Notes under the pieces: model-generated
Databases searched by the model: none
The model's input: the letters and a program-made list of their open reading frames with translations, nothing else
What the model was told of the DNA's origin: nothing
From: Williamsia sp. 1135
GTDB taxonomy: Bacteria; Actinomycetota; Actinomycetes; Mycobacteriales; Mycobacteriaceae
Assembly (NCBI RefSeq): GCF_002095395.1
Contig: NZ_MJEI01000078.1
Coordinates: forward strand, 1 to 63,129
Direction: 5' to 3'
Length of the DNA stretch: 63,129 nt
In this document: piece after piece, positions 4,005 to 61,898 of the stretch
How the letters are laid out: each line of letters begins with the position of its first letter
How positions within the stretch are numbered: position 1 is the stretch's first letter
Program-made: the position numbers and the translations under genes

Positions 4005-21919
<17,915 letters not shown>

Positions 21920-37768: not shown

Positions 37769-37861
37769 ATGTCATCGGAGCTGTTCAGCTTCATTGAAGT
37801 TTTTGGCCAGATCATTCAATTCGTCGTGACCAGCCTGTTTGCGGGTAGCTCGGGCGGATAA
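37769..37861 (+). CDS. Tiny hydrophobic peptide (30 residues), member D of a microprotein family
   Basis: ATG at 37769, stop TAA at 37859-37861, preceded by GAAAGGATC as ribosome site. The peptide starts MSSELFSFIEVFGQIIQFVV and ends in small residues (AGSSGG). It has one acidic pair of positions (E4, E10), no basic residue, and is otherwise an amphipathic or membrane-seeking helix. It has no signal peptide and no recognised domain. It resembles the 22-residue peptides at 49.9 and 61.9 kb in the FS...I...II.FV pattern and in ending near F(A)GS. A strong terminator follows at once, so this is a monocistronic unit. Function is unknown. Small mycomembrane porin-like, phenol-soluble-modulin-like or toxin-like roles are only analogies. 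Confidence 0.7.
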   Translation: MSSELFSFIEVFGQIIQFVVTSLFAGSSGG

Positions 37862-37905
37862 ACGCACAGACGGACCCGGGGCCTCCGTGGGTCCTTATGC
37901 GTTTT
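37861..37905 (+). terminator. Intrinsic terminator after the 30-residue peptide gene
   Basis: Directly after the stop, AACGCA (37861) pairs with TGCGTT (to 37903). An inner GGACCC/GGGTCC stem lies within, and TTTT follows. Such a tight gene-terminator arrangement supports an independent short transcript. Confidence 0.7.
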
Positions 37906-37985
37906 GAGGGGTGTCAGAGGGTGGCGTGACCAATCCCCCATCGCCCTCGACTGCTCGACGACACTTACAACCATAAACTGGCGGT

Positions 37986-38354
37986 ATGCCACAGCGCGTC
38001 TTCCGCGGCAGCGAACTCATTTGCGTCGCAACGGGTGGTGCCCTCGGCGCCGGAGCACGGTTGTTGCTCGACCAGTGGTATTCCGGTCCTCGACACGACT
38101 TCGCTGTCAGTCTGATCGCAATCGGCGTATCAGGCTTGGTATTCGGTGCGCTGTCGGCAGGCGGGTATAGACAAACTATGCGCTGGTTCGTGCTCGGTTT
38201 CTGCAGCGGGCTAGGCGCTCTCAGCGTCGCCGTCGTTGTTGCCACAACATCCACTCACGTCTGGATGTCCGTCGCGTATCTCGTCGCAACAGTTTTCGTC
38301 GCCACCGGCGCGATCGCCGCGGGCCAGCTCACCGCCCGACTCGGCGCTCGATGA
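37986..38354 (+). CDS. CrcB/FluC-like small membrane protein, first of a pair
   Basis: 122 residues with four membrane segments, the size of fluoride channels of the CrcB/FluC family. The N-terminal GGALGAGARLLLDQW matches the family start GGxxGAxxRxxL. Two hallmark elements are missing. The usual VN..G segment reads SLIAIGVSGLVFG, and the phenylalanine/threonine box (TTFST) reads LGALSVAVV. It may therefore be a divergent dimer partner or have another role. The next gene is a similar protein, starting by ATGA overlap, as in heterodimeric FluC pairs of actinobacteria. ATG at 37986 has only a weak ribosome site. Confidence 0.55.
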   Translation: MPQRVFRGSELICVATGGALGAGARLLLDQWYSGPRHDFAVSLIAIGVSGLVFGALSAGGYRQTMRWFVLGFCSGLGALSVAVVVATTSTHVWMSVAYLVATVFVATGAIAAGQLTARLGAR

Positions 38355-38722
38355 GTCCTCTTCTCCAAGTCACGCTGGGTGGCGCCGCTGGCGGCGCCTT
38401 CGCCTACTGCGCCCTCACACTGTTGCCGTGGCGCGACCAGCGGATAGTCCTCGCACTGAATGCGTTCAGTGCGGCGCTCCTCGCCGTCGCTGTGGCAGGC
38501 GAGTCGCAGACATCGTGGTCGGTCACCACCACAATGATTGGGTTTTCGGGGGCCAGCTCGTCGTTTGCGGTGATGTCAGCCCTTCCGCGGCGGATCTCCG
38601 TGCAGGGAGTGGGTGCAATCTTTCTGGCCGTTCTACAGAATGTGGCGATTTCTGCACTGGCAGCCGTGGACGCCTACTTGATCAGTCATGTTGTCTACAC
38701 CGTGTACGGCAAGCTCACGTGA
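38351..38722 (+). CDS. CrcB/FluC-like small membrane protein, second of a pair
   Basis: 123 residues, four membrane segments, overlapping the previous gene as ATGA. It starts VTLGGAAGGAFAYCALTLLP, where the family arginine after GA is replaced by alanine/tyrosine. GFSGASSSFAVMSALPRR stands where GFTTFSTFSxE is expected, so a serine-rich, phenylalanine-poor version of the filter region. LNAFSAALLAV keeps the asparagine of the second helix. Together with its partner it would make a dual-topology pair, but fluoride transport is doubtful with these changes. Confidence 0.55.
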   Translation: MSPLLQVTLGGAAGGAFAYCALTLLPWRDQRIVLALNAFSAALLAVAVAGESQTSWSVTTTMIGFSGASSSFAVMSALPRRISVQGVGAIFLAVLQNVAISALAAVDAYLISHVVYTVYGKLT

Positions 38723-38729
38723 AGGATTG

Positions 38730-39296
38730 CTACAGGAAACGATCGCAGCCCACCACCGCTGCCTTCACAAAGCCCACTACCTGGTAGGCATAAACGCTCT
38801 CCCACTTCGCCAGTGAGAAGTCATAGGCGCGCGGTACGCCAGTCATGGTCACCTTCCCCGTGAAGCACTCAGAGAAAACGAAGCGTGCCCGCAAGAGGTG
38901 ATAGCGCCAGCTGATGACGATGACGTGGTCCCATTCGAACCGTTCTGCCATCTGCTGGGTGAAGATGGCCTCGCCACGGGTGGTTCCGGGTTGCGGCTTG
39001 AAGCAGACGACCTCTACTTCCGGGGTGGAGGCAGCGCATGCCTTCTTCATGACCTTGTCACCGGACCAATACGGATTCGACAGCAAGACTGTGTCTGCGT
39101 ACCCCTGCGCGGCCAGGTCTAGGCCGTACGCTTCACGGCCGTCATGTTCACCTCCGAGGACCACAATCGCATCTGCCCTGGTCACCGGATCCATATCGCC
39201 TTTGGTGAACAGCAGGTAGCCCGAAACCCCCAGCGCCACAGGTAGAACGACCAAACCCACGCACATTGCAATCAACAATCTGCGGATCCACTTCAT
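38730..39296 (-). CDS. YdcF/SanA-like DUF218 membrane-anchored protein
   Basis: 188 residues. One N-terminal membrane segment (LLIAMCVGLVVLPVALGVSGYL) precedes a DUF218 domain: ADAIVVLGGEHDGREAYGLDLAAQGYADTVLLS, TTRGEAIFTQQMAERF, and VIVISWRYHLLRARFVFSECF. DUF218 proteins bind to or affect the cell envelope (SanA, ElyC in other bacteria), but their reaction is not settled. The gene converges with the FluC-like pair, with 7 bp between stops. 49 bp upstream of its start lies the mycolyltransferase stop, so the two may be co-transcribed. Confidence 0.82.
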   Translation of the reverse strand: MKWIRRLLIAMCVGLVVLPVALGVSGYLLFTKGDMDPVTRADAIVVLGGEHDGREAYGLDLAAQGYADTVLLSNPYWSGDKVMKKACAASTPEVEVVCFKPQPGTTRGEAIFTQQMAERFEWDHVIVISWRYHLLRARFVFSECFTGKVTMTGVPRAYDFSLAKWESVYAYQVVGFVKAAVVGCDRFL

Positions 39297-39345
39297 TGGT
39301 ACCGATCGTAAACCCGGCCGGACTCATCCGCTGACTACGCGAGCA

Positions 39346-40392
39346 TCAGCTCAGGCCCAGCGACCTCGACAGCGTCGGCCACGACGCGTGGAAATCATCG
39401 TTCCAGTAGCTCCAGGCGTGGGTGCCCGTCAACCGGAAGTGCGTGGTCGGACGCATACCCAGGGCAGTCAAACGGATTGCGAAGGCGCGGGTGCACCCGT
39501 TGGTCACGGCCTCGATCGCGCCACCAGCGATGATCTGGTCCGCCAATTTGGCTATATCGCCGCCGATGTAGGAGTCGTTCAGTCGATCGTATTGGCCCGG
39601 CAGGCCGCTACCCGCCGACAAGAAGACTGCCGTGCCTCGCAGACGTTCGGCGTGAACCCATGGATCGTGTGCGGCCCATTCCGGATCGTTGGACGGCCCG
39701 TACATGTTTTCCGGGTTTCCCACCCCGACGTGGTTCATCGTGATCCGGATCAGCGCCTGCCCGACAGGATCGCTGACGTTGGCACACGCGCTGTAGGCAG
39801 CAACACCGTCATAGAGGCCAGGTTTTGCGATCGCTAACTGCAGGGCAGACGTTCCTACGCGTGACATCCCCGCCACCGCGTTCCGCCCGGTGGTTCCGAG
39901 CATGTTGTCGATGACCGGTGGGAGCTCCTTGGTCATGAACGTCTCCCACTTGGCGACACCCACATCGGGATCGGGACTCTTCCAGTCCGTCCAGTAGGCG
40001 TTGACACCACCCGCCGGCGACACGATGTTGACGTGAGCATCGTCGAGGTACTGGGCGATGTCAGTGTCGGCATACCTGGCGCCACCATCGAGCAAATAGA
40101 GAACGGGCGCAGGGGTCGACGTATCCTTAGGACCCCGAATATGCACAGGTACCGAGCGGCTCATCGCACTCGAGTACACCTGCACCACAGATTCTCGTCC
40201 CGTTCCCACCGCAGCCCGGTTCAATATCGATCGATCCCGCTGAGCCAACTGTTGATCCCAGTATCCGATGTCGCCGCTGGAGGTGGCGCTCGAGTCGGGT
40301 GCGACCGGTGCGGCGCCCACCGTTGGCGCGCCCACAACGACGCAAGCGGCGGCCAACGCCGCACAGATAGCTGTACGGATGAATTTCTTCAT
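39346..40392 (-). CDS. Secreted trehalose/protein mycolyltransferase (antigen 85/esterase D family)
   Basis: 348 residues. A clear signal peptide (MKKFIRTAICAALAAACVVV, cleaved near APTVGAAP). The alpha/beta hydrolase core has PVLYLLDGGARYADTDIAQYL, the nucleophile in AGMSRVGTSAL (about residue 176), an outer loop with NPENMYGPSNDPEWAAHDPWVHAERL, and the histidine in GTHAWSYWNDDF near the C-terminus. These match mycolyltransferases, which move mycolic acids between trehalose mycolates, arabinogalactan and, in corynebacteria, small outer-membrane proteins. It implies a mycomembrane. The start ATG sits just behind GGGGAG. Confidence 0.9.
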   Translation of the reverse strand: MKKFIRTAICAALAAACVVVGAPTVGAAPVAPDSSATSSGDIGYWDQQLAQRDRSILNRAAVGTGRESVVQVYSSAMSRSVPVHIRGPKDTSTPAPVLYLLDGGARYADTDIAQYLDDAHVNIVSPAGGVNAYWTDWKSPDPDVGVAKWETFMTKELPPVIDNMLGTTGRNAVAGMSRVGTSALQLAIAKPGLYDGVAAYSACANVSDPVGQALIRITMNHVGVGNPENMYGPSNDPEWAAHDPWVHAERLRGTAVFLSAGSGLPGQYDRLNDSYIGGDIAKLADQIIAGGAIEAVTNGCTRAFAIRLTALGMRPTTHFRLTGTHAWSYWNDDFHASWPTLSRSLGLS

Positions 40393-40613
40393 ACTCCCCG
40401 ACTCTTCGATCGACCCTCAGTGGACGTCTCGAATGATTGTCCGCCACTGCGACCAGATTCGCATATCGGGGTAGCCGCCATTCAGCACGCGCGCGTGCAG
40501 TCAAGATGGTTGTGCAACAACATCATGCAGTGACTGATACGTAAAACCTCGGCGTCGTCGTCCGTTCGTATGAACCTCAGAGAGGCCCCGGCACTCAAGT
40601 GCAGTTTCGATTG

Positions 40614-40769
40614 TCAGCGAAGAAGACGGAGATTCGGCTCTCGACTTTGCCGGCGGAGCGCAACCGCTTCGTCCTCGAGATCGGCGTGGCTGATCACCCG
40701 TCCGATGACCATTGCAACCACCATCGCCACGAGTACCCAGAGAACGGCACCAATAGCGATCCACCACAT
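40614..40769 (-). CDS. Small membrane protein, 51 residues (pair member a)
   Basis: Minus-strand ATG at 40769, stop TGA at 40614-40616. The protein begins MWWIAIGAVLWVLVAMVVAM as one membrane helix, continues IGRVISHADLEDEA, and ends with a basic tail (RRQSREPNLRLLR). It is the same type as the protein at 41109 on the other strand, which shares MWW..IGAV.W.LV, the alanine/valine-rich helix, IGR and an AD.. segment. Conservation between the two supports translation, although no strong Shine-Dalgarno site is seen. No known domain. Perhaps an accessory or regulatory membrane peptide. Confidence 0.65.
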   Translation of the reverse strand: MWWIAIGAVLWVLVAMVVAMVIGRVISHADLEDEAVALRRQSREPNLRLLR

Positions 40770-41108
40770 GTCATTCAGTATGGACAGAAAAGGACATCAA
40801 ACAGCCTCGAAAGGATTACGTGTCGGTCACATGATTGATTAATTGTGCGCAGCTTCCAGCAAGAGATCTAACACACCTGCCAATGCAACGACCGTCAGAG
40901 CAGACGTCGGGAATGACCCGGACTGGACGCCCGCGCCTCACACGGGTCGAAGTCAGCGCGTGAGGTGCGGCCATTTTCTGCAGGTTCATCGCCGCTCGCG
41001 GAAATCACAATGCCTTGAATTCGGACATTCCCCGTCAATTTATGACCGTAACAATCAATTCTTAGATCTGGCTATCTTTTCCAGTTCTCAATGGTCATAA
41101 TTCTGCAA
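40770..41108. other. 339-bp region between two divergent paralogous small genes
   Basis: Both small membrane protein genes read away from this stretch, so it should hold two divergent promoters. The right part (about 41020-41100) is AT-rich with TTGAATT and TATTT-like elements, but no hexamer pair is convincing. No further gene seen. Confidence 0.4.
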
Positions 41109-41339
41109 ATGTGGTGGTTGAGCGGCATCGGGGCCGTCGTCTGGATACTGGTGTCTGTTGCTGTCGCGTTGGCAATCGGCCGGATGGTCAAGCGCGCTGA
41201 TGTGCGAGAGCAGATCCATGCCGAAGCGCCTTCAGTCATCGCATTATCGAGCAACTTCAATCGCGAAAATGATTCCCTCTCAGCAGAATTGCGTGAATCC
41301 GCCGCTCCTGTGGACATCCCGCAGTCGCTGCGTGCCTGA
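41109..41339 (+). CDS. Small membrane protein, 76 residues (pair member b)
   Basis: The frame opens at ATG 41091, but ATG 41109 aligns with the start of the paralogue on the other strand and is preferred. It begins MWWLSGIGAVVWILVSVAVA, continues LAIGRMVKRADVREQIHAEA, and has a longer soluble tail containing a serine/asparagine-rich part (SSNFNRENDSLSAELRES). One membrane helix near the N-terminus, tail probably in the cytoplasm by the positive-inside rule. Function unknown. Confidence 0.65.
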   Translation: MWWLSGIGAVVWILVSVAVALAIGRMVKRADVREQIHAEAPSVIALSSNFNRENDSLSAELRESAAPVDIPQSLRA

Positions 41340-41587
41340 CGTCGTCGGCAACAAGGGCCACGCCGGTCTTCCCACCAGACGGCGCCGCTCGCCTAGTTAG
41401 TGCGAGTAAGAAATTCATGCATCCATCCCCAGACGTTGTTGTGGCTCATTAAAATGATCGGTCACCCCTTCCCGAATTATCGACGCGTTTAGCAGTATCT
41501 AGCCTTGGGCAGACTGCCTTTGATTAGAATTTCTATGCGCCGAGATACGTGCGCCGTAACCCGACTTATCCTCTTGGGGGGCCTCGA

Positions 41588-42226
41588 ATGGGTGAAACGA
41601 CGACCACGTTCATGCACACAGCCCGCCGGGTCTCGGGTATCCCACCCGAGCTCCTCGGCGTCGACCCCGAGGAGGGCGACCCCGTCGTCCGGGCGGTCCA
41701 GCAGCAACAGGCTGACGCCCTGTCTGCCGCGTTGTGGGTTGCTTCCTCCTACGTGATGGATGGGCTCTTCGAAGACCTTGCAGGCAGGTCCATGGCCGAT
41801 CCCGGAGTGTCGCTGACCACCGACGGAACCATCCTGCCCTTCCTACCCAGACGTTTCGCGCACGAATATGACTTTCGATTCATACAGAAGCTGATAGTCG
41901 CGGCAGCCGACCTGTTCGCCCGACTGACCCGAGAGTGGTCACCACCGGACTGCGTAGCCCAAGAGCTGCTCATTCGCGTGCTGTTCGATCACGTCCAGTT
42001 CTACAAAGACACCTATGGCCTCGACCTGGCGGACGACTGGCGGTCCACGCTCGCCCGGGAATTGCTTGCAGGCGCCGATCACGACCACCTCTATGGGCCC
42101 GACGCGTGCAACGCCGACCCAAGCCACTACAGCGGAACCGCCGCCACACTCGACAACTGGTTCAAGCCATTCGACGGCAAACGCTTGCCGCCGTACGTCG
42201 AGACACTCGAATCTCCCGAGCGCTGA
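41588..42226 (+). CDS. Conserved-looking hypothetical protein, 212 residues
   Basis: ATG at 41588 lies seven bases behind a G6 run and is preferred over ATG 41549. The protein is soluble and acidic. It starts MGETTTTFMHTARRVSGIPP, has an alpha-helical middle (QQQQADALSAALWVASSYVMDGLFEDL) and a region rich in aromatic and acidic residues (DHVQFYKDTYGLDLADDW). Codon use is typical of the genome, which supports it as a real gene. I do not recognise a family. It stands alone between noncoding stretches of about 250 and 690 bp. Confidence 0.65.
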   Translation: MGETTTTFMHTARRVSGIPPELLGVDPEEGDPVVRAVQQQQADALSAALWVASSYVMDGLFEDLAGRSMADPGVSLTTDGTILPFLPRRFAHEYDFRFIQKLIVAAADLFARLTREWSPPDCVAQELLIRVLFDHVQFYKDTYGLDLADDWRSTLARELLAGADHDHLYGPDACNADPSHYSGTAATLDNWFKPFDGKRLPPYVETLESPER

Positions 42227-42920
42227 TAGCCCAACTGAACCTGCCCTTTCGGGCACTTCTGATCGTCTATGTCATTGCTGGGCACCGGCACTGATGCGTT
42301 ACCCCTCGGTCGAAACCATGCCGTCTCAGATAGTGGGAACGGCCTGCGCACAGCCATCCTTGGCGTCCATTCGATGACTGAGTTCTCAGCGAACGAAAGT
42401 CAACTAACTAGAACCGGAGTGCAGAACCTGTGGCGGGTCGACGGTCAACTGAGGGCCGGCGCGCCGACACTATGAGCTATCGGCGACCGTGACGGTCATA
42501 AGTTCGCTTACGTCTCTCCAAAATGACCGGCAACGGGGGTGTCGACCCCGGAATTGCGAATTGTCTGCAACTTCATCACCATTCTTATTTCAATGAGCGG
42601 TGCGTCAAATAGAAAACTCCTGGATTTCAGAGACCGTGTGAACTCAGCCGGGCCCGTCCGTGGGCCCAACGTATGAATCAACGGCAATTCTCTTCTCGAG
42701 CGGGGTTTTTCGCCTGTTTCGAGTACAGTTTGCGACGGATCTAAGCAGGAAGTCGCGTAAAACTGCGCGAACATCAGCTGCGCGGAGTCACCGTCGGTAC
42801 TGATCTGGACGACATTTTTTCTCGAACGTTCAGTCAGATCGAAAACTCCGTCACCGGATTGCATCGCTCTGAGCGACGCCCTGCCCCGAATAGATCCGTG
42901 GCGATTTCGGAAGGCAAGTA
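42227..42920. other. Upstream region of the synthase-type polysaccharide operon
   Basis: About 690 bp of lower G+C than its neighbours. A minus-strand frame (42508-42987) crosses into the dehydrogenase gene, has no motif and unbiased codons, and is not called. The operon promoter should lie in the right half. No clear terminator or operator could be placed. Confidence 0.4.
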
Positions 42921-44198
42921 ATGAACCGTTCGGGCGATGCTGTGGTTGCGGTAGTCGGATTGGGATATGTCGGCGTGCCGACGGCAATGTCGTTGGTGGC
43001 CGCCGGCCACCGAGTGATCGGCTTCGACGTCGCCATCGAACGCCTCACCAATATCGCCGAAGCGAACATCGACCTTCCACCGGCCGATCTCACCAGGCTG
43101 CGTACCGACCTGGCTTCGGGACTTCTCGAACTCACCCTCGATGCGAACCGGATCAGTGAGGCCGACACCGTCATCGTGTGCGTGCCCACTCCCGTGGACG
43201 AGAGCCAGGCGCCGGATCTCACGGCCCTACACTCGGCCTGCAACACCGTGGTCGCCCAGGTCAGGGGTGGTCAGAGCATCATCCTGACGTCGACGACCTA
43301 CGTCGGGTGCACCCGTGAACTGCTGGTGGGTCCGTTGACAGACCGCGGCTTCGTGGTGGGCCAGGATGTGTTTGTCGCCTTCTCACCTGAGCGCATCGAC
43401 CCTGGTGTCAGCGGTCACTCCCCCACCGCCACCCCGCGCGTGGTCGGCGGCGTCACCCCCTCATGTACCCATCACGCCGCAGGAACCCTGGCCGCCACTG
43501 CTGCCGAGCTGCACGAAGTGTCCTCGCCCGAGGTCGCCGAGATGGCGAAGCTGCTCGAAAACACCTTCCGGGCCGTCAACATCGCCTTCGCCAACGAGTT
43601 CGCGGAGGTCGCCGAGTCGATGGGGCTACCGATCACCGAGATCATCGACGCCGCGGCGACGAAGCCGTATGGCTTCATGCGGTTCACCCCGGGGCCCGGC
43701 GTCGGCGGGCACTGCATCCCCTGCGATCCCCACTACCTGCTGTGGCAGTTGCGGCGTACCCGGGGCAGCGCCCCGATCACCGAAGCGGCGATGGCCGGCA
43801 TCGTGCAACGCCCGTCGACGATCGTGAGCAAGATCCGTGGCAGGCTCGCCGATGCGGGTCGGCCGATGGCCGGCTCCCGCGTGCACATCGTCGGTGTTGC
43901 CTACAAGCCCGGCGTCGCCGACGTGCGTGAGTCTCCTGCTTTGGAGATCATCACCGACCTGACTCGCGCAGGGGCCGTGGTCACCTACTCGGACGCCTAC
44001 GTCCCTGCCATCACCATTGACGGCAGGCGGGTTCCGACCTCGTCGAGCGAAGCCGCCGAGTCGGCAGACCTGATCCTCGTGCACACCGTCCATCCGGGTG
44101 AGACCGATTGGTGGACCTCAGATCAGGACACCGGGCGGCCGCAGGTGCTGGACATGACCTTTCGTTCCGAGTCCCGTCTCATCCCGGATATGCACTGA
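42921..44198 (+). CDS. WecC/WbpA-like UDP-sugar (UDP-ManNAc or UDP-GlcNAc) dehydrogenase
   Basis: 425 residues. The Rossmann start VVAVVGLGYVGVPTAMSLVAAGH, VCVPTPVDESQAPDL, TSTTYVGCTREL and FSPERIDPG are typical of the N-acetylated sugar branch of nucleotide-sugar dehydrogenases. The catalytic cysteine is in GPGVGGHCIPCDPHYLLW (about residue 264). The C-terminal domain has VGVAYKPGVADVRESPAL. It would oxidise a UDP-HexNAc to the uronate. ATG at 42921 follows GGAAGG. It is the first gene of a five-gene operon and probably provides the precursor for the GT2 synthase that follows three bases later. Confidence 0.88.
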   Translation: MNRSGDAVVAVVGLGYVGVPTAMSLVAAGHRVIGFDVAIERLTNIAEANIDLPPADLTRLRTDLASGLLELTLDANRISEADTVIVCVPTPVDESQAPDLTALHSACNTVVAQVRGGQSIILTSTTYVGCTRELLVGPLTDRGFVVGQDVFVAFSPERIDPGVSGHSPTATPRVVGGVTPSCTHHAAGTLAATAAELHEVSSPEVAEMAKLLENTFRAVNIAFANEFAEVAESMGLPITEIIDAAATKPYGFMRFTPGPGVGGHCIPCDPHYLLWQLRRTRGSAPITEAAMAGIVQRPSTIVSKIRGRLADAGRPMAGSRVHIVGVAYKPGVADVRESPALEIITDLTRAGAVVTYSDAYVPAITIDGRRVPTSSSEAAESADLILVHTVHPGETDWWTSDQDTGRPQVLDMTFRSESRLIPDMH

Positions 44199-44201
44199 CA
44201 G

Positions 44202-45719: not shown

Positions 45720-45823
45720 ATCTGAAGTCCAGGAAGCTCCTGCGCGCACTGTTCAGCGTCGCGTTCATCGCGTTGGCCGTCGTGGTCTACATCTTTGTGC
45801 TCAGCCGAGGAACGCTGATATGA
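45716..45823 (+). CDS. 35-residue membrane protein in the synthase operon
   Basis: GTG at 45716 overlaps the synthase stop (GTGA), and its own stop TGA at 45821-45823 overlaps the deacetylase start (ATGA at 45820). The protein is basic at the start (NLKSRKLLRALF) and forms one membrane helix (SVAFIALAVVVYIFVLS). Overlaps on both sides are strong evidence for a translated gene. It may be a small subunit of the synthase, like the short membrane partners of other synthase systems. That role is inference. Confidence 0.8.
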   Translation: MNLKSRKLLRALFSVAFIALAVVVYIFVLSRGTLI

Positions 45824-48257: not shown

Positions 48258-48317
48258 GCCACTTCATTACCGCAGTCTCGGCGCATCGAAAGCGCGCCCC
48301 TATGCCATCGTGGAGAA

Positions 48318-49559
48318 GTGGCACGCACATGGTTATCGGTGACAGTAGAGCTGCTCGGCGGGCGAGGCGACGAGTTATGGCCCCGGCCGGGCCGAACCTT
48401 CGCCGTCGGGCCGGCGCACACCTTCCTTGACTTCGCGACTGCCGTCAACGACGCCTTCGCGAGATGGGACCGGTCTCACTCGTCGATGTTCGTCCTCGCC
48501 GACGGTCGAATGGTCACCGACGTGCACATGGCCGCAGAGATGTCCGGTTCCATCCATGGACCCATCACCGAACCCCTCGACATCGCATCGGCGAAAGTGG
48601 CCGCAATCCTCAAGCCCGGCGACGAATTCCAATTCACCTTCGATTTGGGCGATGACTGGGTCCACCACTGCGCGATCGGTGCCGACAAGGTGGATCCGGT
48701 GCAGGTGCTCGGCATCAAACCGCCCAAGCCCCTGCCCTACTGGGGGTGGGGCGACATCCCGGACCAGTACGGGCGCCGGTGGGCCGACGACGACCGGCAA
48801 GGCGCGGCTCCGGCGAGGCCCGACCAGCCACACCCAATGCTGCAGGGGCGCTGGCCCGGGCGCGGTCAGGTGCCGGCACTCGACCGAACCGAACTCCGCG
48901 CCGCCATCGCGACGGCAGACTCCGCCCGGTTCCTCGCGGTGGTCACCGGGCATGACATCGACGACGCCCTGCAGCAGATCGGCACCGGGATCGCGATGGC
49001 ACTGCAGCAACGCCGTAAACAAGCCGAGCCGGTGGCACTGTCTATACTCAACCGCCTCACCAGCCGCGCGAGCGCCGGTGATGCGGTCCTGGCCGACGAC
49101 ATTCTCGCCCACCTGCGGGGCGTGCCGCTGGCAGGACGCGTCCTGCCGATCGACCTCGACATGCTCGGCGACGCGCTCGAGGGCGCTCTCGTCGAGTCGA
49201 GCGGTGGGTACGTCGACCTGATCACAGGCGAGGTGTACGACGGCAGCGCCACCGACGCGGACGTGGTTGGGGACGACATGGCCATCAACGTCGAAGAAGA
49301 TCCCGACCGGTGGCTCTGGTTCGACCGCGCGGACTCACAGAGCGGCTGGCGCGACATGGCCACTTTCACCGAGCGGCAGCATGATGAGAACGTTCGCGAG
49401 CGCCTCGAGCGTGCGATCGAGGGCAAGGGCGCCTTTAGCAGATTTCGCGACGTCGTTTACGGAGAAGGCCTCGGCGACCGGTGGAACGCCTTCTCCACGG
49501 ACCGTCGTATAGGCCGTGCCCGTGAATTTCTGGCGGACAACGGCATCCGCGTGGGCTGA
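48318..49559 (+). CDS. Plasmid pRiA4b ORF-3/TnpR-passenger domain protein with C-terminal UPF0158 domain
   Basis: 413 residues. The N-terminal domain (about 1-150) has FATAVNDAFARWDRSHSSMF, PGDEFQFTFDLGDDWVHHCAIG and the following PYWGWGDIPDQYG, typical of PF07929, known as the IS1096 passenger TnpR family although no recombinase activity is shown. The C-terminal part contains VDLITGEVYDG, DPDRWLWFDRADSQSGWRDMATF and GAFSRFRDVVYGEGLGDRWNAF, the UPF0158 signature. GTG at 48318 sits behind GGAGAA. It lies outside the sugar operon by 60 bp and its function is unknown. Such proteins occur widely in actinobacterial chromosomes and are not by themselves signs of an IS. Confidence 0.85.
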   Translation: MARTWLSVTVELLGGRGDELWPRPGRTFAVGPAHTFLDFATAVNDAFARWDRSHSSMFVLADGRMVTDVHMAAEMSGSIHGPITEPLDIASAKVAAILKPGDEFQFTFDLGDDWVHHCAIGADKVDPVQVLGIKPPKPLPYWGWGDIPDQYGRRWADDDRQGAAPARPDQPHPMLQGRWPGRGQVPALDRTELRAAIATADSARFLAVVTGHDIDDALQQIGTGIAMALQQRRKQAEPVALSILNRLTSRASAGDAVLADDILAHLRGVPLAGRVLPIDLDMLGDALEGALVESSGGYVDLITGEVYDGSATDADVVGDDMAINVEEDPDRWLWFDRADSQSGWRDMATFTERQHDENVRERLERAIEGKGAFSRFRDVVYGEGLGDRWNAFSTDRRIGRAREFLADNGIRVG

Positions 49560-49864: not shown

Positions 49865-49933
49865 TTACGACCCAAATGTCTCGATGACGAATGCGATGAT
49901 CTTGAGGATGTCCAAACTGAATACTGAGGTCAT
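49865..49933 (-). CDS. Tiny hydrophobic peptide (22 residues), member A of a microprotein family
   Basis: Minus-strand ATG at 49933 and TAA at 49867-49865, with GAAGGAG placed nine bases before the start. The peptide begins MTSVFSLDILKIIAFVI and ends with ETFGS. It is nearly identical in design to the peptide at 61.9 kb: both share MTSVFSL, then a charged/polar residue, I-L, one charge, I-I-A-F-V, E, and F. The shared protein pattern with differing codons argues for translation and selection. It would form one short amphipathic helix with net charge about -1 and has no signal peptide. Function unknown. Confidence 0.78.
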   Translation of the reverse strand: MTSVFSLDILKIIAFVIETFGS

Positions 49934-50035
49934 AGAGTCTTACTCCTTCAAATGTCAACACACTTATCTATGATAAGAGTTGAGTACGGAATAAAGCATC
50001 GTGCCAATTCAGCATATAGAGGCCCAAGACAACAG

Positions 50036-51277: not shown

Positions 51278-51324
51278 TCGCGGCATGCCGCATCAGGGCT
51301 TCTCGACTCGGCAATACTGAGGCG

Positions 51325-55112: not shown

Positions 55113-55272
55113 CCTGGCAGGATGCGACACCCGTGCGTGGCTCGGGGACAGCGGTCGGGCGCAGGCACAGCCATCACCCCAAAAGGAGCGTTGTGGCCCC
55201 ATTCCTGTCAAGTATTCGGTAATACTCATACTTTCGGCAGACTCAACCCCTGAGACCCCGAGGAGTCTGGCC

Positions 55273-56586
55273 ATGACCGATGAGGACCGCCGCGCACGCT
55301 CGGCGTCGCACTACACGCAGATGTCGCCAACGCCTGGGCTGACGGCGGTTGTGGAGCTGGCTGCTCAGGTCACGGGATGTCCGGTTGCCATGATCAACGT
55401 GATCGACGGCGCTTACCAATACACCATCGCCGCGCACGGAATCAGCGCCGGCTTGGTCGTGCCATTGCGCCTGTCTGGTTGCGCCAGCGTCGTCGCCGGG
55501 AATGCCCCGATAGTCATTGCCGACGCTGCCGACCGAACTGACGATTCCACGCTGATCACACTCATGCATGAGGTTGGGTTTCGCGCCTACGCGGGCATCC
55601 CACTGCTCGGACGCGAGGGCCTTCCGGTGGCCTCACTGTGTGTCATTGATCAAGATCCGCATTCCGAGCGGGCCATCGACGTCGCGGCGCTCGCGCGGTG
55701 CGCCATCCTTGCGGGAGATGCGCTCGATAGCGCTCGATCGCAAGGGGCCCACTTCGGAACCACCGGTTTGATCAATGCAGAGCCCCACGACAACGCAGTG
55801 TCGACGATCGAGATCGGCGTCCGCGAGGTGGCAACCGCGGTCGCCAACGACGAGATCGTGCCCTGGTATATGCCGATCATCGACCTGGAAACCGGCGACC
55901 TCACGGCAGTGGAAGCGTTGGCGAGGTGGCTCCACCCCACCCTCGGCGTCCTCCCGCCGGGCGCCTTTGTGCCGTTGATCGAGAACACCGACCTGATCAT
56001 CGACTTCGATCTGGCCATGTTGGCGCGTGCGCTCGACGATCTGCGGCGGTGGCGAACCACTGACACCGATGCCGCCGATGTGAAGGTCGCCGTCAACATG
56101 TCTGCACACCACTTCTACCGCCCGGACTGCGCCGACCGTATCGACAAGGTGGCCACTGCCGCCGGCATCGCAGCGGAGTCCATCGTTCTCGAGATCACCG
56201 AGACCGTCGCAGTTCCAACCACAGCACTGATCAATTCCCGGGTCATCAACGACCTGCAAGAGCGCGGTTACATTGTGGTCTTCGACGACATCGGCGGACC
56301 CTGGCTGCCCGCCGAGCATCTGCTGTCGTTCGGAGTCAACGGGCTCAAGGCCGACCGCGCAGTCGGTTCGTCGCTACACACACCCACCGGCCGCGCCATT
56401 GCGCGGGCTCTGACCGCGTTGACCGACGAACTCGGCCAGTTCTTGGTCATCGAAGGCATCGAATCCGCCGAACAAGCGCATCACGCCCGTGTCATCGGCG
56501 CCCGCTTCGGACAAGGATTCTATTGGTCCGCTGCGCAACCCGCCCACGCCTTTTCCACCTTCCGTCTCATCGGAAGACCCGGTTGA
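55273..56586 (+). CDS. GAF-EAL protein, probable cyclic-di-GMP phosphodiesterase
   Basis: About 437 residues from ATG 55273, which follows GAGGAG at eight bases. Residues about 1-150 form a GAF sensor (CPVAMINVIDGAYQYTIAAHG, AGIPLLGREGLPVASLCVIDQ). Residues about 190-430 form an EAL domain with the catalytic set apparently complete: AVEALARWLHP, VAVNMSAHHF, VLEITETVA, VVFDDIGG, GLKADRAV and VIEGIES, then FGQGFYWS. It should cleave c-di-GMP to pGpG in response to a signal bound by GAF. This second messenger often controls biofilm polymers, which fits the surroundings. The frame is open to 55045 but that part is not protein-like. Confidence 0.9.
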   Translation: MTDEDRRARSASHYTQMSPTPGLTAVVELAAQVTGCPVAMINVIDGAYQYTIAAHGISAGLVVPLRLSGCASVVAGNAPIVIADAADRTDDSTLITLMHEVGFRAYAGIPLLGREGLPVASLCVIDQDPHSERAIDVAALARCAILAGDALDSARSQGAHFGTTGLINAEPHDNAVSTIEIGVREVATAVANDEIVPWYMPIIDLETGDLTAVEALARWLHPTLGVLPPGAFVPLIENTDLIIDFDLAMLARALDDLRRWRTTDTDAADVKVAVNMSAHHFYRPDCADRIDKVATAAGIAAESIVLEITETVAVPTTALINSRVINDLQERGYIVVFDDIGGPWLPAEHLLSFGVNGLKADRAVGSSLHTPTGRAIARALTALTDELGQFLVIEGIESAEQAHHARVIGARFGQGFYWSAAQPAHAFSTFRLIGRPG

Positions 56587-56795
56587 ACGCTCCCGGCAAA
56601 GCAGGATCCGATACTTCCCTGTGTTTGAACCGGTGATCACACAGTGACGCCCTGACCTGCAAAAAGGGTGAGTTGTTACCCTTCAGTAAGCATTCTGTGG
56701 CATCATTGAACCCGGTGCAGTCCGAGCCATTTTCTGACAGTCGTATCTTTTGTGACGACGGGTCAGCACAGTTGGTAGTCGAAGGGACAACCACC

Positions 56796-57224
56796 GTGCA
56801 TACGCAACTCTCAGCTTTATTTCCTAACGACAACCTGCCTTACAAGGGCGCCCCGCTCAGCGTCATCACCTTGCAGCGACAGGGTACGACCATCCTCTCG
56901 GTAAACGGGGAGGTCGATCTTCTGACCGCGCCCCAGCTCACCGAAGCAGTGCTCACGGCGCTCCAGGCCGAATCACGTTGCCTGATAATCGACTTGACAG
57001 GTACGACGTTCTTGTCGTCAGCCGGCATGCAGGTTCTGATCGATGCCCAATCCGCAATGTCACCGAGTGGACACCTGGGCGTCGTCGCCAACGGTCCCGC
57101 CACAGCAGGGACCATGAAACTTGTAGGCCTGGACGGCATTCTGACCATCTCGGCCTCCGTCGACGCGGCGATCACGACGTACATCCACGCGGACCGCGAC
57201 GACACTGAATCTCTGAGCGCTTGA
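56796..57224 (+). CDS. STAS-domain protein (anti-sigma factor antagonist type)
   Basis: About 142 residues. The STAS core reads LSVITLQRQGTTILSVNGEVDLLTAPQL, RCLIIDLTGTTFLSSAGMQVL, then LGVVANGPATAGTMKLVGLDGILTI. The phosphorylatable serine is in LSSAGM. It may act in a partner-switching pathway with an RsbW-type kinase not in this window, and affect a stress sigma factor. GTG at 56796 behind GAAGGGA is chosen; a TTG at 56673 lies within a small hairpin and is less likely. It is 210 bp downstream of the EAL gene in the same direction. Confidence 0.85.
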   Translation: MHTQLSALFPNDNLPYKGAPLSVITLQRQGTTILSVNGEVDLLTAPQLTEAVLTALQAESRCLIIDLTGTTFLSSAGMQVLIDAQSAMSPSGHLGVVANGPATAGTMKLVGLDGILTISASVDAAITTYIHADRDDTESLSA

Positions 57225-57246
57225 CCGTCGCGTCCGCCGCCTGACA

Positions 57247-57324
57247 AATCTGCTCCACTTCTGGCAATCTGCTCCACTTCCAGTGCGCTGGAAGTGGAGC
57301 ACTTTTGCGTAAGTGGAGCAGATT
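57247..57324. terminator. Nested palindromes between converging genes, probable bidirectional terminator
   Basis: A 13-bp stem (GCTCCACTTCCAG with CTGGAAGTGGAGC) lies at 57271-57300, followed by ACTTTT. Around it a second perfect 14-bp inverted pair (AATCTGCTCCACTT from 57247 and AAGTGGAGCAGATT to 57324) encloses the first, and the left arm is also repeated directly. It separates the STAS gene (plus) from the fibre operon (minus). Confidence 0.75.
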
Positions 57325-57355
57325 GGCGCTGGCGAGGCCTTCACCACCGAACTAC

Positions 57356-59254
57356 TCAGCTCGGTGTCGTCACCCACACTCCGGATTGGCGACTGATGGT
57401 GACCGAGCCCGTGGCGCCGGTCACCTCTAATTCATCTGAACCCGGGACCCACTGCAGACTGTCGTCAGCCGCCGCCGACACGCGGTAGGCCTCCATCCCG
57501 TCCGAGCTGCGGATGACCACTGCCGGGCCGGCCGAGGTCTGCATCAATTGCGCCGAGTAGTTGCCGGTTGAGGAGCTGAAGGCCACCGAGATTGGTTGCT
57601 CGGTTTGCTCAGTCGGCTCAGCGGGCGTCGACGACGTCGGTGTAGGACTGGTCGCCGTCGTTGTCGGGGTGGTCGGCGTGATAGTCGTGCTGACGGGCGG
57701 TGCGCCAGACGGTGAGGTACCGGCAGTAGTGGAACTTTGCGGCGGCGACGACGTGCTGCCGGCGCTGGGGCTCGCCGTCGTCGTGGGTGCGGCCGTGCGG
57801 GCACCTGGCGCGGGCACTACGCACGCCACGCCGTTTGCAGCACTGGCGGTCACCTGTCGGGACACGAACTCCGTCGACTGGGTGGTGTCGTTCACGCGGG
57901 TACGAACCTCAACAATCGCCCCCGTGCCGCTCAGATGTGAGGCCGTGAGTTCGCTGTAGGCAAGTGTCTTCGTCACCGCCTGTCCTGCGGGCGTACCGCC
58001 GGCCGTCAAGATATTCGACGTGTAGGCAATGCTCCCGGTGGTCGCGTCGCGCACTATGAAGCGGTAGGTGAACCCGGAAAGGTGTGGCCACGAGAACGTG
58101 GCAGTCTTCTGCGCAGCGTTCGTCAGGCACGTGATGGATGCCGGTGGCGGGATGTAGGCAGCGGCCCCAGATGTCTCCAGGCCTGACCGGCAATGAAGGT
58201 TGGTGGTGTACAAACTCTTGTAAACCCGATAACCACGCCAGCCCGCAGAAACAGCACCCCCGGGAAGCATCGTGTGAATCTCGGCATCGTAGTCCCACGA
58301 GACGATGTCAATCGGAAATCCGCTGGCGCCGAGAGTCGCCGACAGAGTTGAACCGATAGCAGCGGAGGGTCCGGGGTTGACATCGACGGTTCGCCACACA
58401 TTGCCCGAGAGGTCGCGAAGGATGATCCGGTACTGGTACGGCGCACCGATGTGCTTCCAGTCGAGCGTCACCACAGTAGGACTCGTGAAGGTGCTGTTGG
58501 TGCACGTGACGTAGGTCAACCCGAAGAATGGGTCGTTCAACCGCGGGACGAAATCGTTGCGAGACGCAAACGACCCCGTGGTGGCTGAAGCTGAGTCAAT
58601 ATAGGCTGCTGCAGAGCCCTGGACACTGCCACCGACGACGGCCAATGCTGTTGTGAGTCCGACAATTACGAGGGACGATGCATTGCCTGCGAGGTGTTGC
58701 GGCTTGCGCGAGCGAGTCGGCGCGTCAGCCTCACCAGACCGTCGACGGCCGGCGGGAAAAATGACGAGCCACAGCAGCGCGACCACCGCCAGTCCGCCGA
58801 GAATTCTTGCGGCGGGGGTGTGAAGCCATGCGGCCACGTACCCGAGTCCATCGACGTGGAACACCACCCGCTCGGCCGCGGTGATCACATAGGACTGGGA
58901 GTCCGGAACGCTGTTGGCATCGCCTTGAAGGGTCAGTGCCGCAAAGTTTTCCGTGGTCGAGTCGACGGATACGACGCGGTGGGTGATGCGGATGCCCTGT
59001 TCGTTCGTGACGCTGATGACGTCGCCGGGTCGGATGTCGGTAGCCGGGACCGTATCTGCGATGGCCAGGGAGCCCGTCGGGATCGTCGGTTCCATGGACC
59101 CCGACTGAATGATCAACGGTGTGATGCCGAACAGCACAGCAACCGCTGCGGCAATGATGCACAGAAGGCCGGTCACGGCACCGATCGTCAGCGCTACCTC
59201 GCGGATGATGCGTGAGCGGTGGCGGATTGGGCGGCTGTTGCTGATGTCGGTCAC
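57356..59254 (-). CDS. SipW-type signal peptidase fused to a TasA/CalY-like secreted domain and Ser/Thr/Pro-rich stalk
   Basis: About 632 residues from GTG 59254, which overlaps the upstream stop (GTGA). Residues 20-45 form a membrane helix. Then come Ser53 in QSGSMEPTIPTG, His92 in GIRITHRVV and GDAN near 111-114: the Ser/His arrangement of archaeal/ER-type (S26B) peptidases. A second helix lies at 151-169. Residues 194-217 form a third helix ending GSAAAYIDSASATTGSF, very like the signal-cleavage regions of the three small subunits in this operon. About 270 residues of Fn3-like beta domain follow, then a run rich in T, S and P (near 480-560) and a final small domain. It may be a peptidase that cleaves its own fused substrate. 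Last gene of the operon. Confidence 0.85.
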   Translation of the reverse strand: MTDISNSRPIRHRSRIIREVALTIGAVTGLLCIIAAAVAVLFGITPLIIQSGSMEPTIPTGSLAIADTVPATDIRPGDVISVTNEQGIRITHRVVSVDSTTENFAALTLQGDANSVPDSQSYVITAAERVVFHVDGLGYVAAWLHTPAARILGGLAVVALLWLVIFPAGRRRSGEADAPTRSRKPQHLAGNASSLVIVGLTTALAVVGGSVQGSAAAYIDSASATTGSFASRNDFVPRLNDPFFGLTYVTCTNSTFTSPTVVTLDWKHIGAPYQYRIILRDLSGNVWRTVDVNPGPSAAIGSTLSATLGASGFPIDIVSWDYDAEIHTMLPGGAVSAGWRGYRVYKSLYTTNLHCRSGLETSGAAAYIPPPASITCLTNAAQKTATFSWPHLSGFTYRFIVRDATTGSIAYTSNILTAGGTPAGQAVTKTLAYSELTASHLSGTGAIVEVRTRVNDTTQSTEFVSRQVTASAANGVACVVPAPGARTAAPTTTASPSAGSTSSPPQSSTTAGTSPSGAPPVSTTITPTTPTTTATSPTPTSSTPAEPTEQTEQPISVAFSSSTGNYSAQLMQTSAGPAVVIRSSDGMEAYRVSAAADDSLQWVPGSDELEVTGATGSVTISRQSGVWVTTPS

Positions 59255-59889
59255 GTTGTCGTCGCATTGAACGTCAGGGTTACCGACTGCAGAGTCTGAG
59301 ATTGCACGCTCAGTGGCGTTGCCGGGACGAGCGTGACCACAAAGCAGAGGCTCTGCTTGTTCGTTCCCGCGGTCGTTCCCAGCGGTTGAGCCGCAGTGAT
59401 GATCGGGACGGTAACCGCGGCCTGCAGCATTGCGGTTCCGAGTTGCGACCCGCTGCAACTCCCTGTGGCCAACCCGTTGGATGTGCCGTTTGTCGGTGCG
59501 CTACCGGCGAATACGGCCATTCGGAGGAAGTTGGTGAGCGCGGGACTTCCCGCGGCAGTGCGCGCTGTCATGGTGTAGATCAACGGGAGCGTCGACAGGG
59601 TGTTCTGTACTTCTAACGTCGCAGCCCTGCTGTCGCCGGGCAGCATGTTCGTCATGCTCAGGCCCGTCGCACCGCTGAACGTGTAACTCTTGACCCCGTT
59701 GACGCGAAGGTCGACTGTTCCAGTCTTGAAATCTCCGGACGTCGCAAGTGCGGAGTTGCTCCACAACGCCATCGTCCCGACAGCGCCGAGTCCCAGGACG
59801 ATGCCCAGAGCCAGGATGGCACGCACTCGCACCCCGATCGACCCCATGAACACAGTTCGGACGGCGGCCCAGTCAGCGCTGGGCGCCAT
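59251..59889 (-). CDS. Secreted fibre subunit with SipW-dependent signal peptide (TasA/CalY-like)
   Basis: 212 residues. The signal stretch is AILALGIVLGLGAVGTMALWS, followed by NSALATSGDFKTGTVDLRVNG, the usual start of SipW-processed proteins. The mature part is a beta-rich domain with GLSMTNMLPGDSRAATLEVQN (the LxPGD element found in TasA/CalY) and two cysteines, in GSCSGS and LCFVV. It should be secreted through Sec, cut by the operon peptidase, and assemble outside into fibres or an adhesive coat. ATG at 59889 follows AGAGGA and overlaps the upstream peptidase end by 17 bp. ATG 59847 is a possible alternative. Confidence 0.82.
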   Translation of the reverse strand: MAPSADWAAVRTVFMGSIGVRVRAILALGIVLGLGAVGTMALWSNSALATSGDFKTGTVDLRVNGVKSYTFSGATGLSMTNMLPGDSRAATLEVQNTLSTLPLIYTMTARTAAGSPALTNFLRMAVFAGSAPTNGTSNGLATGSCSGSQLGTAMLQAAVTVPIITAAQPLGTTAGTNKQSLCFVVTLVPATPLSVQSQTLQSVTLTFNATTT

Positions 59890-60481
59890 GATCCGAATCC
59901 TCTTTCACCTCTCGTACGTCTGCCGGTTCGCAGCGCATGCGCCGTCGATCCCGGATGCTTCCGCCCGTCATGAGGATCGCGTAGGAAAACAGCGCCGTGA
60001 CAATCGCGCCGATGACCCAGGTGCGGTGTTGGCCGGTGACCCAGTTGTTGACGTATCCGAGGTAGGGGATGCTGTACCAGACCTCTCCTCGGATTTGCTC
60101 GACCACAACCGGTTTGGGGTCCGCGACGTCGTTGGCGTCGCCCTTCGTGGTGTAGGTGCGCTCCCCCAGAGTGTTCTGCGACGTGGCGACGATCCTGTGA
60201 GTTACCACCGCCGGCCGACCGGACTGTAGCTGATAGGTGATGGCGTCGCCGATCCGAAGGTCGTCGGCGTCGGCCGGTTTGACGATTATGAGCGTTCCGG
60301 GTGCGTACGTCGGTTGCATCGACCCGGTGAGCACGGTGAACCGCTCAGCACTGCCCGCGGCCGGGATGAGGAACGTGATCGCCAAGAGCGAGAGCATGGC
60401 GAACAGGAACGCCCACGACAGAACCGTGCGGACCCACCAGAGAAGTCCGGTGGACTCATCCGCTGAAACAGATACGGTCAT
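59873..60481 (-). CDS. SipW-type signal peptidase I (archaeal/ER class)
   Basis: 202 residues. ATG at 60481 overlaps the stop of the subunit gene before it (ATGA). One N-terminal helix (WAFLFAMLSLLAITFLIPAA) is followed by the catalytic serine in LTGSMQPTYAPGT (Ser54), histidine instead of lysine in AVVTHRIVA, and TKGDANDVADP. A second helix lies at TWVIGAIVTALFSYAILM. Replacement of Lys by His marks the SipW class, which processes special short secreted subunits in Bacillus biofilm operons. It lies between two such subunit genes. The frame is open further upstream in the track of the subunit gene but the overlap start fits best. Confidence 0.9.
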   Translation of the reverse strand: MTVSVSADESTGLLWWVRTVLSWAFLFAMLSLLAITFLIPAAGSAERFTVLTGSMQPTYAPGTLIIVKPADADDLRIGDAITYQLQSGRPAVVTHRIVATSQNTLGERTYTTKGDANDVADPKPVVVEQIRGEVWYSIPYLGYVNNWVTGQHRTWVIGAIVTALFSYAILMTGGSIRDRRRMRCEPADVREVKEDSDHGAQR

Positions 60482-61008
60482 AGCTGTTGATCCGCCCGAA
60501 AATTGAGGGTGACTTTGGTGGTCTTGTTCTGCAGAGCGCCGGCGCCGACAGTAGCGCGTAAACACCAGACTTCCGAAGTGTTTGCCTGCACCGTTCGTGC
60601 CGTCGACGGCGCCGGAAACACCGTCCACGGCCCGGCGACGACACTCGATGGACTACCAGTAGGCGGGCATCCCGCGATGCTGCTGACAATCGACGCACTG
60701 AGGGTCAGTGGTACTTCGCTCGTGGTGGGGACCACCGACTGGAGTCGGTATGCCGCCTTCGTGTCGCCGACCACCGAAATGGTCAGCGGGCGTTGAACCA
60801 CCGAACCCGGGGCCAGACCGGCGCTCCCGAAGTCGTTCCAGGCGTAGTTCTGCGACTCACCGGCCAGGATTCTCAGCTGGCCCGAGGTGACAGTCGCGCT
60901 GCCGGTCTGTGCCTGATCGCGCCAGGAAGCACCTGTTTGTTCTGCGGACATCACGGCCAGCACGGTGATCGCGATGGCGGCTCCAGCGCCCTGCCAGCGC
61001 TTCTTCAT
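60478..61008 (-). CDS. Secreted small subunit with SipW-dependent-type signal peptide
   Basis: 176 residues. It starts MKKRWQGAGAAIAITVLAVM with the cleavage region SAEQTGASWRDQAQTGSATVTSGQL. The mature part has GSAGLAPGSVVQRPLTISVVGDTKAAYRLQ, including an LAPG-type loop, and two cysteine-containing strands (SIAGCPPTG, SEVWCLRAT). It is shorter than TasA and more like other actinobacterial subunits of unknown structure. ATG at 61008 comes three bases after the previous stop and is followed by an ATGA overlap with the peptidase gene. Confidence 0.78.
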   Translation of the reverse strand: MKKRWQGAGAAIAITVLAVMSAEQTGASWRDQAQTGSATVTSGQLRILAGESQNYAWNDFGSAGLAPGSVVQRPLTISVVGDTKAAYRLQSVVPTTSEVPLTLSASIVSSIAGCPPTGSPSSVVAGPWTVFPAPSTARTVQANTSEVWCLRATVGAGALQNKTTKVTLNFRADQQL

Positions 61009-61011
61009 GGC

Positions 61012-61560
61012 TCAGGGGTTGTCGTTCTGCTGCAGGGTCAGAGTGGTCGCGGAAAGGTTCACCGTCTGATTCTGCGCAGTAAGACCCTCAGTGGCCGGGT
61101 CGAATGTCATCGTCACGTTGACCGTGATGGGTTGCGACGCTTCGGTAGGAGCGATCTGTACCCCGGTGGGGCCGCTGGGGAGATCTACCCCGTTGGCGGT
61201 CGCGGTGACTGACGCATCGAGAGCCAATCGCAGGTCCTCGTCGCCGGTGACCGCACCAATATTGGCCGACAGGGTGGCCGTGAGGTTGTCACCGGTCGCA
61301 TTGACCGCGGTGAGGCACCTGTACGAGACAACGTCACCTGGGACGATGCGGAACGCAGCAATACTCGCGATGGTGGTGTCGTTGTTCACATCGGTCCAAG
61401 TGCCTCCGCCGGTGCAATCGTCCAGTGACAGTTCGCCCGAGCTGATCGAGCCCCCGGGAGAGGTGGCGCTGTCATTCCAGAATGCCAAACTACCGAGCCC
61501 ACCCAAAAGAAGAACAGCTCCTGCGCCGGCGGCCACTGCTGCTTTGGTTTGCTTTTTCAT
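61012..61560 (-). CDS. Secreted subunit, alternate-type (SipW-dependent) signal peptide protein
   Basis: 182 residues. MKKQTKAAVAAGAGAVLLLG runs into GLGSLAFWNDSATSPGGSISSGEL, the standard consensus for alternate signal peptides in actinobacteria. The mature part has AAFRIVPGDVVSYRCL (with the VPGD loop) and ends TVNLSATTLTLQQNDNP. It is the first gene of the five-gene operon; the promoter should lie at 61561-61740. ATG at 61560 is preceded by a weak GAGAA. The name CalY/TasA-like is used by signal peptide and loop pattern only. Confidence 0.82.
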   Translation of the reverse strand: MKKQTKAAVAAGAGAVLLLGGLGSLAFWNDSATSPGGSISSGELSLDDCTGGGTWTDVNNDTTIASIAAFRIVPGDVVSYRCLTAVNATGDNLTATLSANIGAVTGDEDLRLALDASVTATANGVDLPSGPTGVQIAPTEASQPITVNVTMTFDPATEGLTAQNQTVNLSATTLTLQQNDNP

Positions 61561-61743
61561 CGGGTTCTCAATTCTTCTCGCCGTGCAGGGGTTACATCAC
61601 CATATAGCCGACTAGAACAAATTCGTTACAGACGGAATCGTTTCTGGGAGTGAAATACCACATGGTGGTGGAAATATTTTGGTAACCCACGCCTTGCCTT
61701 GCCTCGAATTCGGCAAGTCAAAGTTCGCGACCGGCGATGACAG

Positions 61744-61785
61744 AAAAACATGCTGTGTGCCACACATTATGGCACACAGCATGTT
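61744..61785 (-). terminator. Strong intrinsic terminator downstream of the sortase/peptide unit
   Basis: On the minus strand AACATGCTGTGTGCC and GGCACACAGCATGTT form a perfect 15-bp stem with a nine-base loop, followed by TTT. It ends the transcript carrying the peptide at 61.9 kb and insulates the fibre operon. Confidence 0.88.
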
Positions 61786-61829
61786 CGACCAACCAGAACT
61801 CCTGAGATGACTACCTCAGACGGGTACGC

Positions 61830-61898
61830 TTACGCCGCGAACATCTCGAAAACGAACGCAATTATCTCAAGAATGTTCAGACTGAATACTGAGGTCAT
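61830..61898 (-). CDS. Tiny hydrophobic peptide (22 residues), member B of a microprotein family
   Basis: Minus-strand ATG at 61898 and TAA at 61832-61830, with TAGGAG four bases ahead of the start. It begins MTSVFSLNILEIIAFVF and ends EMFAA. Against the peptide at 49.9 kb 14 of 22 residues are identical, and most changes are conservative. The codons differ (for example ATT/ATA versus ATC, CTT versus CTC), so it is protein rather than DNA that is conserved. Charge is about -2. It lies between the sortase gene and the fibre operon and ends 45 bases before a strong terminator. It might be expressed with the sortase. Function unknown. Confidence 0.8.
   Translation of the reverse strand: MTSVFSLNILEIIAFVFEMFAA

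Follow-up and report, generated by a model that had tools for sequence, protein, structure and literature searches.

Families of tiny acidic hydrophobic peptides in Williamsia and their association with MytC-type mycoloyltransferase genes

Background

PorA and PorH of Corynebacterium (NCBIfam NF033925, NF033937 and NF033938) are very small, acidic, helical proteins. PorA has 45 and PorH 57 residues, both without signal sequence (PMC11927696); PorACj has 40 and PorACur 37 (lengths taken from PMC11927696 and PMC5944148), and the tandem genes lie between groEL2 and polyphosphate kinase (PMC5944148). PorA is mycoloylated in vitro by MytC (PMC11927696), which is the same enzyme as Cmt1 (PDB 4H18 is listed as apo-MytC, PMC11927696) and is alone required in C. 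glutamicum for the O-mycoloylation of proteins (PMC11066868). ProtX of the same species (cg2875) undergoes MytC-dependent mycoloylation, its modified Ser37 being the penultimate residue (PMC5310785). Protein O-mycoloylation has been demonstrated in Corynebacterium only, and its existence elsewhere is stated as open in the excerpts of PMC5310785 and PMC11066868. Here we describe four genes for peptides of 22-33 residues in a stretch of 63,129 nucleotides from Williamsia sp. 1135 (the window, contig C72 in a genome of 5.98 Mb). We give about even odds (roughly 0.5) to these peptides being signal-less, acidic, hydrophobic, helical micropeptides of the mycomembrane and probable substrates of MytC-type enzymes, similar in kind to PorA, PorH and ProtX without being members of those families.

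The window peptides resemble PorA and PorH in the absence of a signal peptide, in their very small size, in their acidity and in their predicted helicity. Two of the genes are also often side by side (50175 and 49865 in the window; families A and B, defined below, in genome G003), and there is a link to a MytC-type mycoloyltransferase. They differ in length (22, 22, 33 and 30 residues against 37-57), and neither the four window peptides nor seven tiny proteins from other genera match the PorA/PorH models; in a control, PorA and PorH sequences match NF033925 and NF033938/NF033937. The pairwise similarity of family A peptides to PorA is weak (p 0.006-0.04, uncorrected for many comparisons). Further differences are that Williamsia has MspA porins too, and that neither groEL2 nor polyphosphate kinase occurs among the 18 window genes scanned with Pfam or NCBIfam, a set that leaves out some small open reading frames near the peptides. 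The likeness to ProtX is by description only (small, signal-less, MytC-linked). The 49865 peptide (..FGS) and the 37769 peptide (..AGSSGG) also end in Ser/Gly, whereas subtype A2 and family B have no C-terminal Ser. No literature on such peptides in Williamsia was found, judging from titles, abstracts and passages, most subscription journals lying outside this coverage.

Four peptide genes in the window

The four sites are protein-coding genes of 22-33 codons. Their frames translate as proposed in the first-pass annotation, which was made from the sequence alone, one on the plus strand and three on the minus strand:

49865..49933, minus strand: peptide A, 22 residues, MTSVFSLDILKIIAFVIETFGS; frame translated; 3 other Williamsia genomes have syntenic copies with 77-95% identity
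61830..61898, minus strand: paralogue of peptide A, 22 residues, MTSVFSLNILEIIAFVFEMFAA; frame translated; 76% identity to the 49865 peptide over 21 residues
50175..50276, minus strand: peptide B, 33 residues, MSTYTTIDAAIDGFLNTTPWAMDLLLFFVAGVQ; frame translated; in 9/9 Williamsia genomes
37769..37861, plus strand: peptide C, 30 residues, MSSELFSFIEVFGQIIQFVVTSLFAGSSGG; frame translated; in 4/9 Williamsia genomes with 97-100% identity
50036..50074, minus strand: terminator-like hairpin 3' of peptide B, between B and A, with a 17-bp stem
37878..37895, plus strand: terminator-like hairpin 3' of peptide C, from the hairpin scan
61801..61820, minus strand: weak terminator-like hairpin 3' of the second peptide A (61830), from the hairpin scan

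A Shine-Dalgarno-like site precedes each of the four peptides, and hairpins are listed after three of them (weaker after 61830), both as described earlier. Visual inspection adds a stem and T-run downstream of 49865 and a longer palindrome downstream of 61830; both are absent from the list of the hairpin scanner. Inspection agrees that the four peptides have no signal peptide (22-33 residues, no basic N-terminus). NCBIfam and Pfam searches of the four gave no match up to E 10, in keeping with the earlier statement that no known family is clearly matched, and a plasmid search gave no match.

A strict, homology-free scan, whose filter was chosen after the families had been seen, retained frames that start with ATG, are 18-48 codons long, follow a Shine-Dalgarno site and encode peptides without Cys, with no more than one Lys/Arg/His, one or more Asp/Glu and a hydrophobic share of 40% or higher. 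It returned exactly the four known peptides from the window and no others, against a mean of 0.17 matches and a maximum of 2 in dinucleotide shuffles of the window (n=30).

The pattern of base changes also indicates coding. Observed changes were placed at random and the resulting residue changes compared with expectation; purifying selection is seen in most comparisons with enough changes. The 49865 and 61830 copies do share the MTSVFSL pattern with different codons, as had been noticed: they differ at 15/66 bases, 8 of them at third positions, and show 6 residue changes against 9.4 expected (p = 0.02). Copies of peptide C in four species show 4-11 base and 0-1 residue differences (p <= 0.0025 for 5/6 pairs and 0.07 for the sixth), and silent-biased change is also found in B and in the 28-residue subtype of family A. 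The four syntenic copies of 49865 are too similar for the test (p 0.15-0.62). The MytC-linked family E (see below) is under clear purifying selection, with 0/2000 null draws as low in 9/15 pairs.

Two explanations bear on this gene structure. Short frames followed by terminator-like hairpins could be attenuator leader peptides that control the next gene, and both 37769 and 61830 have a downstream gene on the same strand. However, 49865 faces a convergent gene (48318-49559, plus strand), subtype A2 is convergent with a mycoloyltransferase gene in 6 genomes, no run of any single regulatory codon was seen, and residues are conserved beyond codons. The leader reading was rejected because of the convergent geometry, and we regard it as very improbable. 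Short hydrophobic frames with terminators of their own and with paralogues are also features of type I toxins, or of other peptides that damage membranes and are controlled by antisense RNA. This is highly unlikely here: the window peptides have no basic tail, A and B are present in 9/9 genomes with conserved synteny and silent-biased change, and an Rfam search of the window gave no match (no search aimed at an antisense gene was made).

Directly upstream of the A peptide (49933), a palindrome, CTTATCAT-N-GATAAG, occupies positions 49970-49990. It is present in 4/4 syntenic copies, not at 61830, and is perhaps an operator.

Three peptide families in Williamsia

Judged by their sequences, the four window peptides are not one family and correspond to three, A, B and C. 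The first-pass annotation had seen one family at four sites. This does not hold, as the 37769 and 50175 peptides do not align with the 49865 peptide above the level of shuffled sequences (p 0.13 and 0.20); the 'FS...II.FV...F' pattern said to be common to them requires a two-residue shift, and in profile comparisons A is not significantly similar to either C or B.

Family A (49865, 61830 and relatives, 21-28 residues) occurs at 23 places in 9/9 Williamsia genomes and in 0/242 other genomes of the taxonomic family. It can be subdivided into A1 (22 aa, MTSVFSL..), A2 (21-22 aa, MTST(M/F)(D/E)ID.LE..) and A3 (26-28 aa, MTSTFE.A.LD.FQF..). Family B (50175) occurs at 13 places in 9/9 Williamsia genomes; elsewhere among the 251 genomes searched there are one relative from another genus (G023, with E 1.5e-9) and, within long frames, two partial matches that are weak. 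Family C (37769), for which the search was confined to Williamsia, is found in 4/9 genomes. A and B adjoin each other in the window, in G002, G005, G007 and likewise in G003. Every peptide member seen carries a Ser within residues 2-4. In the window's own genome an A3 gene is divergent from that of a secreted cutinase/PE-PPE-domain protein, and a PE-PPE-domain protein is among the published putative O-mycoloylated proteins (PMC11066868). A further candidate micropeptide, MLETIFYFFEVIENTFWVIADAVATGSVG, was noted in G002 (L094:1803-1892, minus strand), 4 kb from an A3 peptide.

Association with MytC-type mycoloyltransferases

A Cmt1 search of the nine Williamsia genomes gave 9-14 matches per genome. 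The top match is the neighbour of an A2 peptide in 6/9 genomes (G002, G003, G004, G006, G007 and G008), the two genes lying tail-to-tail about 0.1-0.2 kb apart. The enzyme beside A2 is secreted, has 348-349 residues and in the PDB matches Cmt1 best (E 1e-78), followed by PS1 (1e-46) and Ag85A (4e-31). Its Ser-Glu-His triad, read by eye, aligns with S189, E310 and H341 of Cmt1 (residues named in PMC11927696). The best Cmt1 match of each genome falls in the same clade (9/9), with a modest margin over the next paralogue (e.g. 270 vs 246 bits in G000).

On the side of the enzyme opposite to A2, the scan uncovered two additional families, D (e.g. MGSLEDIDFGALLQLLLGLIAGGGEEGGGTAG) and E (e.g. MTSSETGLLAFIQLLGGLLAGLAGGSSN), whose peptides have no Pfam or NCBIfam match. 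Similarity between A and D is marginal (hhalign E 0.005 with a probability of 7%; 0/500 shuffles in the pairwise A2-D comparison). When the strict scan was restricted to flanks, 7/9 best-match loci contained matches (17 in 27 kb), against 0/21 at the other Williamsia mycoloyltransferase loci (63 kb). A variant of the scan admitting GTG/TTG starts gave matches at 2/21 of these other loci (L119 and L133); both contain Cys and were judged spurious.

In the window, an enzyme of this type lies near peptide C:

39346..40392, minus strand: secreted mycoloyltransferase of Cmt1/MytC type; best PDB match Cmt1, E 2e-54; 1.5 kb from peptide C

A Cmt1-type gene lies about 1.5-1.6 kb from C in 4/4 genomes with C, and in G003, G004, G006 and G008 the distance from B to another mycoloyltransferase is about 5 kb. 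A mycoloyltransferase match elsewhere in the window's own genome is split across two overlapping frames (G000:C48:146357-147212).

The closest homologues of the enzyme were also taken from 30 genomes of other genera and their flanks scanned. The strict scan gave 10 matches in 9/30 loci (89 kb), against 0.45 expected (Poisson p 6e-11). The expectation comes from a background of 2 matches in 400 kb taken elsewhere in 15 of these genomes; as this rate rests on two matches, its upper 95% limit (~7 per 400 kb) leads to a chance of ~1e-5. The strict matches in L146 and L165 are doubtful by eye and still counted among the 10. A looser filter gave 16 matches against 4.9 expected (p 6e-5), with L165 contributing three frames and L166 two, and 5 matches at the 21 other Williamsia loci. 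L149 contains a pair of 45 and 48 residues and L153 a related 40-residue peptide (0/500 shuffles in the pairwise comparison), lengths in the PorA/PorH range, while the peptides of L152 and L173 have Ser/Gly tails. Pfam and NCBIfam searches with eight other-genus tiny proteins returned two insignificant matches (E 0.12-0.13). In Rhodococcus, the surroundings of six homologues of the window enzyme (L047-L052) contained no peptide of this kind in the strict scan. One control stretch from another genus carries adjoining frames of 35 and 40 residues with Ser/Gly-rich tails (L188:1717-1824 and 2094-2216, plus strand).

Composition and predicted structure

With the exception of one Lys at 49865, the window peptides contain no Lys, Arg or His, and their net charge is -1 to -3. 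Helices are predicted at residues 6-17 and 21-31 of B (mean predicted local distance difference test, pLDDT, 86) and 2-27 of C (mean pLDDT 91). The amphipathic moment is above that of shuffles for A at 49865 and 61830 and for C. Members of A1, C, D and E have Ser/Gly/Thr C-terminal tails; those of A2 and B do not, which leaves their N-terminal Ser/Thr. The mycoloylation sites known so far are surrounded by small, flexible residues and follow no strict motif (PMC11066868); in PorH and ProtX the modification is close to the C-terminus (PMC5310785).

Hydrophobic helices of 22-33 residues would cross a normal membrane and envelope enzymes are among the neighbours, so the peptides might sit in the inner membrane as small proteins that bind envelope enzymes or transporters encoded nearby and regulate them. 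Acidic residues within the hydrophobic stretch and the near absence of Lys/Arg for positive-inside anchoring argue against this, and the presence of several families at one enzyme suggests substrates rather than one regulator. We consider such a role somewhat unlikely.

The size, the lack of a signal peptide, the helicity and the occurrence of several families per genome also recall the phenol-soluble modulins. Like these, the peptides could be secreted unlipidated through a dedicated transporter, as surface-active agents for wetting or dispersing biofilm and the hydrophobic surface of the cells, and the 61830 peptide does lie beside a SipW/class F sortase cluster. However, the window peptides match no NCBIfam or Pfam family up to E 10, amphipathicity of B, A2, D and E is not above that of shuffles, the gene neighbourhood is one of mycolate metabolism, and the link to a mycolate-transferring enzyme would be left unexplained. 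This explanation is unlikely. Of the mycomembrane or biofilm role suggested in the first-pass annotation, the biofilm part has just this cluster, beside one of the four peptides, in its favour; the mycomembrane part is supported by the MytC-type neighbourhoods.

Proposed role in the mycomembrane

For genes that are real, conserved, grouped in families and placed in this neighbourhood, a mycomembrane role is the best-backed reading, since in Williamsia relatives adjoin MytC-type mycoloyltransferases and in other genera tiny proteins adjoin homologues of the enzyme. We infer that the peptides would cross the inner membrane, as PorA and PorH do, and that a MytC-type enzyme would then O-mycoloylate them on Ser or Thr of their flexible ends. 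The resulting lipidated helices may reside in the mycomembrane singly or as hetero-oligomers (e.g. the neighbouring 49865/50175 pair). They might form pores; their effect would probably be to alter the packing or permeability of the mycomembrane rather than to act as the sole porin.

Several observations weigh against this proposal. MspA porins are present in 9/9 Williamsia genomes, so a general-porin role is not required. The window peptides (22-33 residues; 21-33 in the families) are below the smallest known PorA, and in amphipathicity the 28-residue A subtype is borderline, while B, A2, D and E do not reach significance. The best-match loci of the window's own genome (C54) and of G001 have no peptide within the 12-17 kb around them. 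The loci of G003, G004, G006 and G008 are closely related, so that 6/9 corresponds to about two lineages. The window peptides themselves are not beside the best MytC match, and only C is near a Cmt1-type paralogue. In the tree, the Williamsia enzyme and Cmt1 share a 36-row fork (support 87/91) with two other Williamsia clades outside, and a sole Cmt1 orthologue is not resolved; the rows comprise 15/21 'other' Williamsia and 23/30 other-genus sequences, without Ag85A, those omitted being near-duplicates or distant. Finally, an insertion like that of MytC (relative to PS1 and Ag85A) and a Cys pair are found in all eleven aligned Williamsia Cmt1-type paralogues. The MytC-specific loop, which trehalose mycoloyltransferases are not known to possess, was dropped as proof of orthology for this reason.

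More tentatively, mycolata outside Corynebacterium may in general possess unannotated mycomembrane lipopeptides of 20-50 residues, signal-less, in several unrelated families per genome and O-mycoloylated by flanking MytC-type enzymes. If so, protein mycoloylation would serve throughout the order to insert tiny peptides into the outer membrane, even in MspA-bearing genera. The gene-neighbourhood rule supplies candidate substrates beside MytC-type enzymes, and mycoloylation outside Corynebacterium thereby becomes testable in soil genera that are harmless. Genes this short may be overlooked by ordinary annotation, and the same scan is applicable to any mycolata genome.

Other features of the window

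The cluster beside the 61830 peptide (57356-62734) includes SipW-type signal peptidases, an alternate-signal-peptide protein (TIGR04089) and a class F sortase. At the other end of the window, a single open frame of 5972 residues (4001-21919, minus strand) perhaps encodes a multimodular synthetase, judged by its size.

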